Positions 855 to 4,808 of a DNA stretch of 5,528 bases are shown here, in pieces. The stretch is from Candidatus Alcyoniella australis (GTDB lineage: Bacteria; Lernaellota; Lernaellaia; JAVCCG01; Alcyoniellaceae). The stretch's first letter is position 1. Every line of letters starts with the position of its first letter. The stretch is from contig JAVCCG010000154.1 of assembly GCA_030765605.1 (NCBI GenBank), forward strand, positions 1-5,528, written 5' to 3'. The notes beneath the pieces were generated by a model, which ran no database searches, had not been told where the DNA came from, and saw only the letters and a list, made by a program, of their open reading frames with translations. Both the position numbers and the translations under genes were made by a program.

Positions 855-2303
855 CTAGTCGCTGCGCTCGATCAGTTTGCGGGATAGAGTCAGGTTCCAT
901 TCAATTGAATACATTATTGCAGCTTGTTCTCTTTGCGTCTTGGTCAATCGTTTGCCCAGGCGGCCCAGTTGCTTAAGATATGATCGTAGTTGTTTGAAAG
1001 CCTTGTCGCGCGCCGCGCCCTGTGACTGGTTATAGTTGCGCACTACTTCATCAATTCGGCATTGCACGTCGCTGATCTCCCGTTCCAATTCCTGTCGCAC
1101 GGCCTGCGATTTTCCTTTGGCCCGCTGAAATGAATCGGCCAGGGTTTCCAAGGACTGCACGACTGGTTGCAGGCGATCGGTCAACTGCGAACTGTTCAAT
1201 GCAAGCGATGTTGGCGCTGCTTCTTTTCTCTTTGGATTGAGATACGATGCGTTGCCGCTTTCCCGTTGTTTGATTTCATCTGCTGTGAGCAACTTCGCCG
1301 AATGGATTTCCTTTAGAGGCGAGTCATTGCTGACAATCGGTGAAAACGGGTCCGAGCTGTTGATGTCCACAACCCGCGTAAAATAGTGCGCCCAGGCATG
1401 ATCCTCGCCATAGCCGGTGTCGGTAATGCCGACGGTTTCCACTTCGGAATCGAGCATGTCCGGGTAAAGTTCGAGCAGATGTTTGATCTTCATATATGAA
1501 GAGTTTTGCTTGAAACTATCGGGCGGTGAAATCCGTTTCGGCTTTCGATAGAGTAAAAAGTAGCGATAAATGAAGTGCGGCGAACTGAGAAAACCGTCAT
1601 GTTCTTCAATTGTCGTATAGATAATATCCTCAATGCCCAGATCGTCGCGCGCCGTCTCGACAATCGGTTGCGGAGAAGCGCTGCTGATGATGATCTTTAA
1701 TTGCGGGTATTTTTTCCGCAGGGCTTCGAAATCCTCACGAAAGAACACCTGGTCGCCGGAATATCGGTTCCAGAGCCTGCGGCTCATGTTGCGCAGCGCG
1801 TCAAGGGAGAATTCAGTCATGTGGTGCATCAAGGCCAGTCGCGGCACTTCCTGCACCACGGCCACCGGATGCGCTCCGAACAGCCGGTACCTCAGCCGGT
1901 TGCTCCACGTGCGGCGCCCGGCCAGCTTGCCGCAGAATAAATAGAACAGGCCTGGAAACGTCCACAGGCGCGCACCGCGCAATATATATTTGAGCATGGC
2001 CAGCGGCTGATCTTTGGCAAACAGAAAGCGGCTTTGAATGCGCTGGGAATCGATGCGGGCCATGTAATCTTCACCGTAACAGGAGCCGGCCGAGAGCTCC
2101 CAACCCAGCAGCTCACCCAGGTTGCGCCCAAAATGAAAAGTCCGATCCAAGTCCATGACCAGGTATTTTGTTTTGTCGGTTATCACCTGATCTAAAATCT
2201 CGCTGCCGCGTAAATAACCGCCGTGCACAGTGATGCGATCGACCAGCCGCGTGTAATTGGCGTCTGGACCGCGACTGGAACCAATAAACCGTTTTAAGTC
2301 CAT
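855..2303 (-). CDS. HAD-superfamily phosphatase-like protein with helical C-terminal extension
   Basis: The protein has 482 residues. The HAD core is visible as motif I at residues 49-55 (V-M-D51-L-D53-R-T55), motif II in IIISSAS (204-210, Ser207/208), a motif III lysine in MKIKH (Lys272 or Lys274) and motif IV as ITD295TGYGE300D301. The roughly 150 residues between motifs I and II form a large C1-type cap, which includes a hydrophobic stretch, ILRG then LWTFPGLFYLF, near 107-122. After about residue 345 a linker leads to a Lys/Arg/Gln-rich region (about 370-480) that looks helical or coiled-coil and is not part of a normal HAD fold. HAD enzymes of this layout, including phosphoserine phosphatase relatives, hydrolyse phosphomonoesters through an Asp nucleophile (here Asp51); the substrate is unknown. 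The ribosome binding site is weak (only a GAG at suitable distance). The upstream lipoprotein gene on the same strand is separated by a strong terminator, so this gene probably has its own promoter, though none is clear. Confidence 0.85.
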   Translation of the reverse strand: MDLKRFIGSSRGPDANYTRLVDRITVHGGYLRGSEILDQVITDKTKYLVMDLDRTFHFGRNLGELLGWELSAGSCYGEDYMARIDSQRIQSRFLFAKDQPLAMLKYILRGARLWTFPGLFYLFCGKLAGRRTWSNRLRYRLFGAHPVAVVQEVPRLALMHHMTEFSLDALRNMSRRLWNRYSGDQVFFREDFEALRKKYPQLKIIISSASPQPIVETARDDLGIEDIIYTTIEEHDGFLSSPHFIYRYFLLYRKPKRISPPDSFKQNSSYMKIKHLLELYPDMLDSEVETVGITDTGYGEDHAWAHYFTRVVDINSSDPFSPIVSNDSPLKEIHSAKLLTADEIKQRESGNASYLNPKRKEAAPTSLALNSSQLTDRLQPVVQSLETLADSFQRAKGKSQAVRQELEREISDVQCRIDEVVRNYNQSQGAARDKAFKQLRSYLKQLGRLGKRLTKTQREQAAIMYSIEWNLTLSRKLIERSD

Positions 2304-2470: not shown

Positions 2471-3304
2471 CTACTCCTGGATTTCGATCACGCCGTAAGT
2501 CGGCAGGTTGAAGCCCGGGTAGTAGTCGTTGAGCTCGTTGATGAACTCGTCGGCCAATAACTGATGCCCTAACTCATTGACGTGAACGTCGTCCAGCAGA
2601 ATGTCGGTCATCGTGAGCTTCTCGCCGTCGTATAGAAGCTTGTCGTTGATCAGCGCCGTCATCAGCGCGTCGAGGTCCACCATCGTGTAGTCGGGATAAT
2701 CCGCGATCTCGTCGGCAATCGCATCGTTGTACAGCACGCGATCAGCGAACGGGCAGGAAAGCGCGTTCATCATCAGCACCGGCACGTTGGCGCCGAAGAA
2801 CGGTGCGTCGTTCTTCGAGTTGCTCAGCGTGTCCAGGTAGTCCGCCACGCGGCCCTGGAAAGTCGGCACGTCCGGGTCGTCGTCCAGGTAGTGGAAGAAA
2901 GCGTCGACCGCCGGGAACCAAGTGCTGTCGCCCGAGAGGTCGTCCACGTCGGTGTACCAGTAGACCCACATCTCCGGCGTGTACTCGACGCAGGCGTCCA
3001 TCACCGTCCAGACCTGCTCCAACAGCTTGCCCGGGTAGAACGTGTTGTAGTCGCCGGGGCCCAACGGTCCGAACGGGTCGCCCGCGCCGCTGCCCACGTC
3101 GGTGTTGTAGCTGTTCGAGGAGCCCGCGATCGAGATCAAGGTGAACAGCCCCTTCATCTCGTCTGTCAGAGCTTCGCAGTCGTATTCGTCATCGTCGTCG
3201 TCGTCGTCATCGTCGTCATCATCGCCGTTGTCGCAGGCCAAGCCGGAGGCCAGCAGGCCCAGCGCGAGCAGCAGGATGAACGCAATCCACATTTTCGGTT
3301 TCAT
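2471..3304 (-). CDS. Poly-Asp lipoprotein, putative SGNH/GDSL-type hydrolase
   Basis: The protein has 277 residues from the ATG at 3304, which has a strong GGGAGG site 6 nt upstream. An ATG 51 bp further upstream would only add residues before the signal peptide. A lysine-bearing start and the hydrophobic core MWIAFILLLALGLLASGLA lead to Cys24, giving a lipoprotein-like signal whose lipobox (GLAC) lacks the usual Leu/Val at -3. Twelve consecutive Asp follow at residues 28-39. The C-terminal D238-D-V-H241-V-N-E-L-G-H matches block V of SGNH hydrolases (D-x-x-H, catalytic Asp238 and His241). ISIAGSSNS (58-65) could be a divergent block I with Ser63 as nucleophile, the usual Asp of GDS being Ser. 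A classical G-x-N-D block III is not seen. Such enzymes cleave acyl or acetyl esters of lipids or carbohydrates; the substrate here is unknown. It likely sits anchored at the envelope facing the periplasm or outside. Confidence 0.8.
   Translation of the reverse strand: MKPKMWIAFILLLALGLLASGLACDNGDDDDDDDDDDDDEYDCEALTDEMKGLFTLISIAGSSNSYNTDVGSGAGDPFGPLGPGDYNTFYPGKLLEQVWTVMDACVEYTPEMWVYWYTDVDDLSGDSTWFPAVDAFFHYLDDDPDVPTFQGRVADYLDTLSNSKNDAPFFGANVPVLMMNALSCPFADRVLYNDAIADEIADYPDYTMVDLDALMTALINDKLLYDGEKLTMTDILLDDVHVNELGHQLLADEFINELNDYYPGFNLPTYGVIEIQE
3188..3223. repeat. GTC/ATC triplet run encoding 12 Asp
   Basis: Twelve uninterrupted triplets, each GTC or ATC on the plus strand, encode Asp28-Asp39 of the lipoprotein in a GAC/GAT mixture. 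The mixture of the two codons suggests selection for the peptide as well as possible triplet slippage. A similar tract lies in the neighbouring gene at 3474-3557. Confidence 0.9.
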
Positions 3305-3455: not shown

Positions 3456-4808
3456 TTACCCGCAGCACCCGTTGTCGTCGTCGTCATCGTCGTCAGCGTT
3501 GATGTCGTCGTCATCGTCAACATCATCGTCGTCAATGTCGTCGTCGTCGTCGTCGTCGGGGTCGGGCTCGGGCGGATCGCCGATCTCGAGGGTGTCGATG
3601 ATCGTGCCATCGGAGATGATCGACTCGAGCTTGAGGTAGTCGCCGTTGATTTCAATCAGGCAGAAGCCGAAGTGTTCGAAGTCGCCGTTGGGCTCGAAGA
3701 ACTGGGAGTAGGGGTTGTGCGCCGGGTTGCCGAAGAACGTGGGCAGGGCCCCGCCGTTGCCCGCCACCATCCAGTAGATGCCGTCCTTATAGCTGCGTTC
3801 GTAGCTGTGCTCGTGGCCCATTAGCACCATGTCCAGCTCGTACTCCTCGGCCAGCGGTACGATGAACTCCTGCGCCTGATGTTCGGTGTTGTCGGTGGGC
3901 CAGCGAAACGACGAGGTAAAGGCCGGAATGTGGAACAGCATAAACTTCCAGGTGATGTCCGGGTTGAGCGCTGTTTCTTCCAAATCGTCGGCGATCCATT
4001 GGTACTGCGCGTCGCCGGGCTGGAACCCATGTTCGGTGCTGACCACCACGAAGTGGGCGTTGGAGTAGTTAAATGAGTAGTAGAACTCGTTGCCCGAAAG
4101 CGATTGCTCGCCGGGATTGGAGAAGATCGCCGAGTAGACGTCCTTGCCGTCGATCCCTTCTTCCTCGCGGTCCTCGTGATTGCCGTAGATCGGGTAGTAG
4201 GCGCTGCGCGCAGCCACGGGCGCGGACGTTGCCAGGGCGATCTGCCACAGTTGCATGTCGTGACCGTCGTTGACGATGTCGCCGACGTTGAACATGAAGT
4301 CGAAGTCGTACTGCGCCATGCGCTCGATCACGCCCTGGTGAAACTGGTTGGTCTCGCCCAGGGGGTAGAGCGGATCGGAGCGCGAGTCGCCGTAGACCAC
4401 AAAGCGGAACGGCTGATCAGGGTCGGGCGCGGAGGCAAAGGTGCTGTCCGCGCTGGACGCATCACCGAGGGTCACCGCGTAGTGGTACAGGCTGTCCGGC
4501 TCCAGATTCTCGATGGTCGTGCAGTAGGCGTAGCGCTGCACCAGGTCGTACCAAGTTACTGCGCCGAACAGCAGGTAGTGTCCCCAGGTGGCGTCGAGCA
4601 GCTCGCCCGAGACAAAGATCTCGGAGCCGTAGTCCGCGGTCGGGCCGAAATTTATCGCCGCGAGCTGGTTGGACTCGGACTGAAAGCAGATGTCGATCGA
4701 CGTGCGCGTGACGTTGGTGACGAACGGCGAAATCGTGAACTCGGCCGCCTGGGCCGAACCGACGAGCGCCGAGAGGATCAACAGCGAGAGTACGATTGTT
4801 TTTTTCAT
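3456..4808 (-). CDS. Secreted calcineurin-like metallophosphoesterase, purple acid phosphatase-like, Asp-rich tail
   Basis: The protein has 450 residues. A Sec signal peptide, MKKTIVLSLLILSALVGSAQA, is probably cut after Ala21. Residues about 22-125 look like the fibronectin-III-type N-terminal domain of purple acid phosphatases. The catalytic domain (about 135-345) shows GD141SRSD, G-D177-I, GN210HE, FH293IP and GH332EH334SYER, the full dinuclear metal set. The position of the Tyr ligand of true purple enzymes (G-D-x-x-Y) is Asn180, so the metal centre is probably not the Fe-tyrosinate type. Likely activity is hydrolysis of phosphate mono- or diesters outside the cytoplasm. The C-terminus (418-445) is four Asp runs of 7, 4, 5 and 7 residues, ending NGCCG with no transmembrane helix. 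The ATG at 4808 is chosen because the signal peptide begins there; in-frame ATGs at 4856 and 4892 give no signal peptide. No ribosome binding site precedes 4808. Confidence 0.9.
   Translation of the reverse strand: MKKTIVLSLLILSALVGSAQAAEFTISPFVTNVTRTSIDICFQSESNQLAAINFGPTADYGSEIFVSGELLDATWGHYLLFGAVTWYDLVQRYAYCTTIENLEPDSLYHYAVTLGDASSADSTFASAPDPDQPFRFVVYGDSRSDPLYPLGETNQFHQGVIERMAQYDFDFMFNVGDIVNDGHDMQLWQIALATSAPVAARSAYYPIYGNHEDREEEGIDGKDVYSAIFSNPGEQSLSGNEFYYSFNYSNAHFVVVSTEHGFQPGDAQYQWIADDLEETALNPDITWKFMLFHIPAFTSSFRWPTDNTEHQAQEFIVPLAEEYELDMVLMGHEHSYERSYKDGIYWMVAGNGGALPTFFGNPAHNPYSQFFEPNGDFEHFGFCLIEINGDYLKLESIISDGTIIDTLEIGDPPEPDPDDDDDDDIDDDDVDDDDDINADDDDDDDNGCCG
3474..3557. repeat. GTC/ATC-rich tract encoding the Asp-rich tail
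   Basis: The 84-bp tract is almost entirely GTC and ATC triplets on the plus strand. It encodes Asp runs interrupted by single Ile, Val, and an Ile-Asn-Ala group. The breaks keep the frame exactly, and several interruptions are one base away from an Asp codon (GTC to AAC, ATC to AAT differ by one or two bases), consistent with a tract grown by triplet duplication and then diverged. Confidence 0.9.

Follow-up and report, generated by a model that had tools for sequence, protein, structure and literature searches.

A C-terminal aspartate and cysteine tag on diverse exported proteins of a class of Candidatus Lernaellota, with a probable role in anchoring

Why would a secreted enzyme end in a long run of aspartates, two cysteines and a stop codon? 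The question is raised by a phosphoesterase gene of Candidatus Alcyoniella australis, which lies in the stretch of 5,528 nucleotides that we analysed (the window). An earlier note on this DNA had offered three readings of the tail of the protein: a tether that binds Ca, a metal site, and a previously unseen C-terminal signal for modification or anchoring. Here we examine the protein, the occurrence of its tail in the source genome and in other lineages, and the relation of the tail to known ways of sorting and anchoring exported proteins.

The gene has its likely start at an ATG (4806-4808) and its TAA stop at 3456-3458 on the minus strand, giving a protein of 450 residues whose C-terminus reads ...DPDDDDDDDIDDDDVDDDDDINADDDDDDDNGCCG before the stop. 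The protein matches Metallophos (PF00149, E 3e-12), and residues D141, G176/D177, G209/N210/H211, H293, H332 and H334 are invariant in an alignment of its homologues (alignment A1). An AlphaFold2 model built with 19 homologues of the same class as input was confident over the core (mean pLDDT 83.6), for which the best PDB matches were plant purple acid phytases/phosphatases (Foldseek E 1e-27). By fold and metal-ligand motifs, the cargo meets the criteria for a purple-acid-phosphatase-like metallophosphoesterase. The last 30 residues were modelled without secondary structure (pLDDT 45-56), and the final 35 residues together form a disordered Asp linker followed by NGCCG and the stop. The features of the gene and of its neighbor are collected in Table 1.

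Table 1. Positions of the tagged phosphoesterase, its parts and the adjoining lipoprotein gene in the window.
Feature	Position	Strand	Sequence or basis
Tagged secreted phosphoesterase, purple-acid-phosphatase fold, 450 aa	3456..4808	-	PF00149, AlphaFold2, Foldseek
Sec/SPI-type signal peptide, no lipobox Cys	4746..4808	-	MKKTIVLSLLILSALVGSAQA then AEF; sequence; orthologues align with SPI signals
Folded core with conserved GD, GNHE and GHxH motifs	3579..4733	-	Alignment A1 and high-confidence model
Asp linker, residues 416-445, 24/30 Asp, flexible spacer	3474..3563	-	Sequence; pLDDT 45-56
Terminal tag NGCCG, residues 446-450, then TAA	3459..3473	-	Common to about 30 proteins of the genome
N-terminal lipoprotein, GDSL/SGNH-like, adjoining the tagged phosphoesterase	2471..3304	-	Lipobox LASGLA-C then DNGDDDDDDDDDDDD
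Lipobox Cys and Asp linker of the GDSL/SGNH-like neighbor	3188..3235	-	Sequence

The adjoining GDSL/SGNH-like protein was assigned on a weak PF13472 match (E 0.007) that falls below the family cut-off. It carries a 12-residue Asp run right behind its lipobox Cys, and the two anchor styles thus lie side by side in the window. Two further genes were noted. A 482-residue protein (855-2303, minus strand) has a weak HAD-IB match, a coiled-coil-like C-terminal part and no Pfam match, and a gene truncated by the contig end (4953-5528, plus strand) encodes the beginning of a Tat-exported protein in which a lipobox-like Cys (LAGC) is seen.

The tail is not peculiar to the phosphoesterase. The source genome (4.29 Mb, 98% complete) gave 64 overlapping matches to D4-N{0,30}-CCG, against none in a reversed control, and the in-frame matches inspected were 28 proteins, in all of which CCG ends zero to two residues before the stop. 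Altogether about 30 unrelated exported proteins of this genome end in an Asp linker and a Cys tag, and those with complete N-termini mostly begin with classical signal peptides. A wider look in the same genome added the endings GCGC, GGCGG, CCGR and ACSS. The tagged cargo spans unrelated folds: Metallophos, GDPD, papain C1, M14, subtilase S8, S15, gingipain-like C25, GH123, a GH42-like domain, amidase_3, kelch and DUF6055. In 108 of the 118 tails collected, two or three cysteines fall within the last nine residues, while roughly 8% have a single Cys there; the last Cys is followed by zero to four residues before the stop codon. The tail segments had no match to TIGR03901, other CTERM models, Pfam or NCBIfam. 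Additionally, we found no description of the tag or of protein sorting in Lernaellota in the open-access literature searched, a scope that leaves out subscription papers, including the original description of Lernaellota.

Beyond the source genome, an Asp and Cys tag was present in all seven genomes of the class that we analysed, in the dialects GCCG, GCGC, GCCGC and GCGCGC. Tags are numerous in G001-G005 and few in G006. GCCG dominates in the window genome and GCCGC in G001; among the endings found in G002, G003, G004 and G006, GCGC is the most frequent. The pattern D3-N{0,12}-GCGC-stop occurred in 7/7 genomes of the class and in 0/379 genomes of other lineages. Furthermore, a scan of the genomes of 84,980 species for D4-x2-CCG followed by TRR, a collection from which genomes very near the window's may be absent, returned 11 stretches. 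The stretches with a true stop came from the metagenome-assembled genome (MAG) FR_14, which belongs to this class, apart from a single 38-residue betaproteobacterial ORF that is junk. In four matches from Acidobacteria the scan gave no tag with a true stop, and TRR is presumably TGG there. One of our class genomes, G005, is identical over three 3-kb stretches to FR_14, the scaffolds of which bear the name FR-FEN-1099-1. FEN-1099 is the phylum that has been proposed as Ca. Lernaellota (PMC13248872), and we infer that the class belongs there. Taken together, these surveys show a conserved, class-specific, disordered C-terminal tag of Asp and Cys on diverse exported proteins.

The earlier note was right about the form of the tail, an Asp run behind the catalytic domain that ends in NGCCG (Table 1). 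Its statement that the tail has no transmembrane helix or basic end, and so is not tripartite, agrees with the sequence, and among 108 tags checked in the +1 and -1 frames past the stop we found a hidden membrane helix in only one. A frameshift-hidden helix was set aside, since the frame of that single match looks like a signal peptide belonging to the gene that follows. The note would have been refuted by a tail found on no other protein of the genome or lost among close orthologues. Neither is the case, given the tagged proteins described above and the closest orthologue of the phosphoesterase (G002, 54% identity), which keeps the tag and ends in ...DGACGC.

A function for the tag is suggested by where Asp runs occur. 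In the sampled stretches of the source genome, runs of at least five Asp lie almost always in one of two places, immediately behind a lipobox Cys or immediately ahead of a C-terminal Cys. When the ORFs of all collected loci were sorted by rule, 71 were N-type (lipobox and Asp) and 138 were C-type (111 after deduplication), and only two scored as both. Judged by their sequences, both dual-scoring ORFs look like rule errors, one having a chance C-terminal Cys without a linker and the other an SPI site after a Cys in the signal peptide. Separately, a gingipain-like C25 protease (L149:9282-11795, minus strand) combines a lipobox-like signal with a tail in which an Asp linker leads to a final ACSS. 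Its sequence would fit a doubly anchored protein or a decayed tag, and it is the one possible true exception. Overall, the tag is nearly exclusive with N-terminal lipoprotein anchoring.

The same division is found within families. Eighteen Metallophos members are tagged and have SPI signals whose cleavage site lacks a lipobox, and eight have a lipobox and an Asp linker and end without a tail. Neither the phosphoesterase nor its 18 tagged homologues therefore meet the criterion of a bacterial lipoprotein, an N-terminal lipobox Cys. This split was read by eye; a crude automatic lipobox rule (17/1/5/6, Fisher p 0.006) misfiled several proteins. We considered many independent switches between lipobox and tag in Metallophos and rejected them, because the tree needs only one. 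The family thus counts as one independent event, and the weight is carried by the genome-wide dichotomy and by a second family of unassigned function that shows the same anchor switch (BLAST E about 1e-52). A third such pair is weak (BLAST E 9e-7). Because the two features are nearly exclusive genome-wide and homologues carry one or the other, we infer that the tag takes the place of the N-terminal lipid anchor. That it anchors its proteins in this way is probable, although we have no data on location.

We propose the following sequence of events. Exported proteins would cross the inner membrane by means of an ordinary signal peptide, and a flexible, highly acidic linker would then expose the cysteines of the tag, one to three in number, which lie at the C-terminus or only a few residues short of it. 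A lipid would most likely be added to at least one tag Cys, possibly by an enzyme from among the several Lgt paralogues. After type II secretion the lipidated tag would hold the enzyme at a membrane, the probable site being the outer membrane or the cell surface. A tagged protein would then be the mirror image of a lipoprotein, in which the lipidated N-terminal Cys precedes the same Asp linker. On balance we favor, by a modest degree, a phylum-specific C-terminal anchoring tag whose terminal Cys is most likely lipidated, in the absence of lipid, enzyme or location data. The stronger form of this proposal is a helix-free and cleavage-free pathway in which the terminal Cys is lipidated directly and such "reverse lipoproteins" reach the surface; we hold this only tentatively and would not yet bet on it. 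One argument against lipidation is that the tail has no membrane helix, so that its capture by a membrane acyltransferase is hard to explain. The possible double anchor of the C25 protease, the single-Cys tails, the single anchor switch in Metallophos, the absence of one Lgt group from the window genome and the lack of linkage between Lgt copies and tagged genes beyond chance also count against this explanation.

Several candidates for the machinery were weighed. Each genome of the class has three Lgt genes (in drafts, some are in pieces). Most of 34 other genomes have a single copy, and just one of the 34, of 9 Mb, has three that are full-length. Of the shared orthologous groups, A was found in 7/7 class genomes and B, in the tree, in 6/7; group C is absent from the window genome, which has a different third Lgt instead. 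Most Lgt paralogues of the class (L207-L226) have an unusual GCC[YH]G motif, and the third copy of the window genome looks canonical. Copies of Lgt lay beside tagged genes in 2 of 20 regions, which is not above expectation. The Lgt paralogues are the leading candidates for lipidation of the tag, a point inferred more weakly than anchoring itself, and the enzyme is not identified. A CPBP protein (PF02517) is present in 6/7 class genomes, with no match in G003, which is 99% complete and has both short and tripartite tails. On these matches, CPBP/myxosortase does not seem to be a required enzyme. The earlier note had proposed asking whether many unrelated secreted enzymes share the tail and whether a processing enzyme accompanies it; the first part was borne out, but no gene family recurs beside the tags in 55 tagged neighborhoods beyond two or three chance pairs, and a processing gene adjoining the tags was discarded as a candidate. 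Lastly, all seven class genomes encode GspD, a component of type II secretion.

The main rival to lipidation is that the terminal cysteines anchor through their thiols, by way of disulfide bonds or mixed crosslinks to some surface or envelope protein that is rich in Cys. The two or three cysteines near the end of most tails would fit such a bond, and exclusivity with N-terminal lipid anchors suits an anchor of any type. We nevertheless consider this unlikely. Extracellular disulfides are less favored in anoxic settings, and such are the sludge and fen from which FEN-1099 MAGs were obtained (PMC13248872; MAG name); moreover, the motif is similar to that of MYXO-CTERM, for the Cys of which lipidation has been proposed (PMC11980579).

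Alternatively, the tag could serve in recognition or targeting, type II secretion being one example, with the protein left free or the tag later cleaved and no permanent anchor formed. The presence of GspD throughout the class and a cargo of extracellular-type hydrolases would agree with this, but untagged homologues carry a lipid anchor instead. Furthermore, the Asp linker is common to tagged proteins and lipoproteins, which points to tethering and against a signal for targeting only. The substrates of type II secretion are not known to share a terminal tag, which also counts against this reading, and we regard it as improbable.

A tail that binds Ca or another metal, the Asp run holding cations and the cysteines a soft metal, would account for the high density of Asp and for the paired Cys. 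However, neither spacing nor length is fixed, disorder is predicted, the tail occurs on many unrelated folds with Cys always at the end, and the same Asp runs serve as linkers in lipoproteins. We give metal binding very little credence. With regard to the readings offered in the earlier note, a folded Ca-module is not supported, given the predicted disorder and the use of the same linker behind a lipobox Cys, and near-exclusivity with N-terminal lipoprotein anchors makes a new C-terminal modification or anchoring signal the best supported of them. A low-complexity artefact, that is, GAC/GAT repeats or translation in the wrong frame, might be suspected where simple repeats expand easily and tail lengths vary, but it is refuted here by the recurrence of the Cys motif at the stop across seven independently assembled genomes, by mixed GAC and GAT codons, a reversed-pattern control near zero and restriction of the tag to secreted ORFs with known domains.

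An anchoring tag with a lipidated terminal Cys can be compared with several known systems. It shares with N-terminal lipoproteins of the Lgt/LspA pathway the combination of Cys, Asp linker and enzyme, and in homologues it appears to replace their anchor, but it sits at the opposite end of the protein, and the signals of tagged proteins are of SPI type without a lipobox. Rab-type double-Cys prenylation (-CC, -CXC, -CCXX) is eukaryotic and cytosolic and acts on GTPases. It offers an analogy only, in soluble proteins that end in one or two cysteines without a membrane helix (compare CCG, CGC and CCGC). GlyGly-CTERM/rhombosortase, PEP-CTERM/exosortase and LPXTG/sortase are likewise genome-wide C-terminal sorting tags on unrelated cargo; however, they consist of a motif, a helix and a basic end, a tripartite criterion that the short tag does not meet.

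The closest likeness is to MYXO-CTERM (TIGR03901), also a C-terminal tag on many unrelated Sec-exported proteins, with a GCGC-type Cys signature, a disordered region ahead of it and type II secretion present. The criterion of an invariant Cys signature near the C-terminus is satisfied by the GCCG and GCGC of the collected tails. In contrast, the transmembrane helix and Arg-rich cytoplasmic end are missing; the short tag has no peptide to cleave, and the chain stops at the Cys motif. Without a helix and a basic end, the short tag fails membership of MYXO-CTERM. Tails that do match TIGR03901, with an Asp linker, GCGC or GCGGCG, a membrane helix and Arg/Lys, are few in the class. Such MYXO-CTERM-like tripartite tails, outside Myxococcota, were seen in 7/7 class genomes (L120, L121, L125, L126, L127, L133, L135). 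In Myxococcus, the TraA tag contains ...AFCCG..., and myxosortase depends on the cysteines of this tag to cleave it (PMC11980579; Guo, Haft and Wall); prior lipidation of the Cys by an unidentified, possibly Lgt-like, enzyme has been proposed (PMC11980579). From the tripartite tails of the class and these facts on TraA it follows that the short tag resembles the Cys signature alone, ending at about the point where myxosortase would cut. By analogy, it may function like the processed form of MYXO-CTERM.

The C-terminal sorting tags described to date rely on a membrane helix, which is then removed by cleavage. A tag that lacks the helix, ends in Cys and is carried by dozens of enzymes in each genome would amount to a new mode of protein display. 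Direct lipidation of the terminal Cys, if true, would separate the proposed, unidentified Cys-lipidation step of MYXO-CTERM from its protease step, and the short tag would be a clean substrate for asking which enzyme lipidates a C-terminal Cys in that pathway. Recognition of the tag would also improve the annotation of exported enzymes in an uncultured phylum. We would place the tag among the known C-terminal sorting tags, and it would come close to being categorically new if helix-free lipidation were shown.
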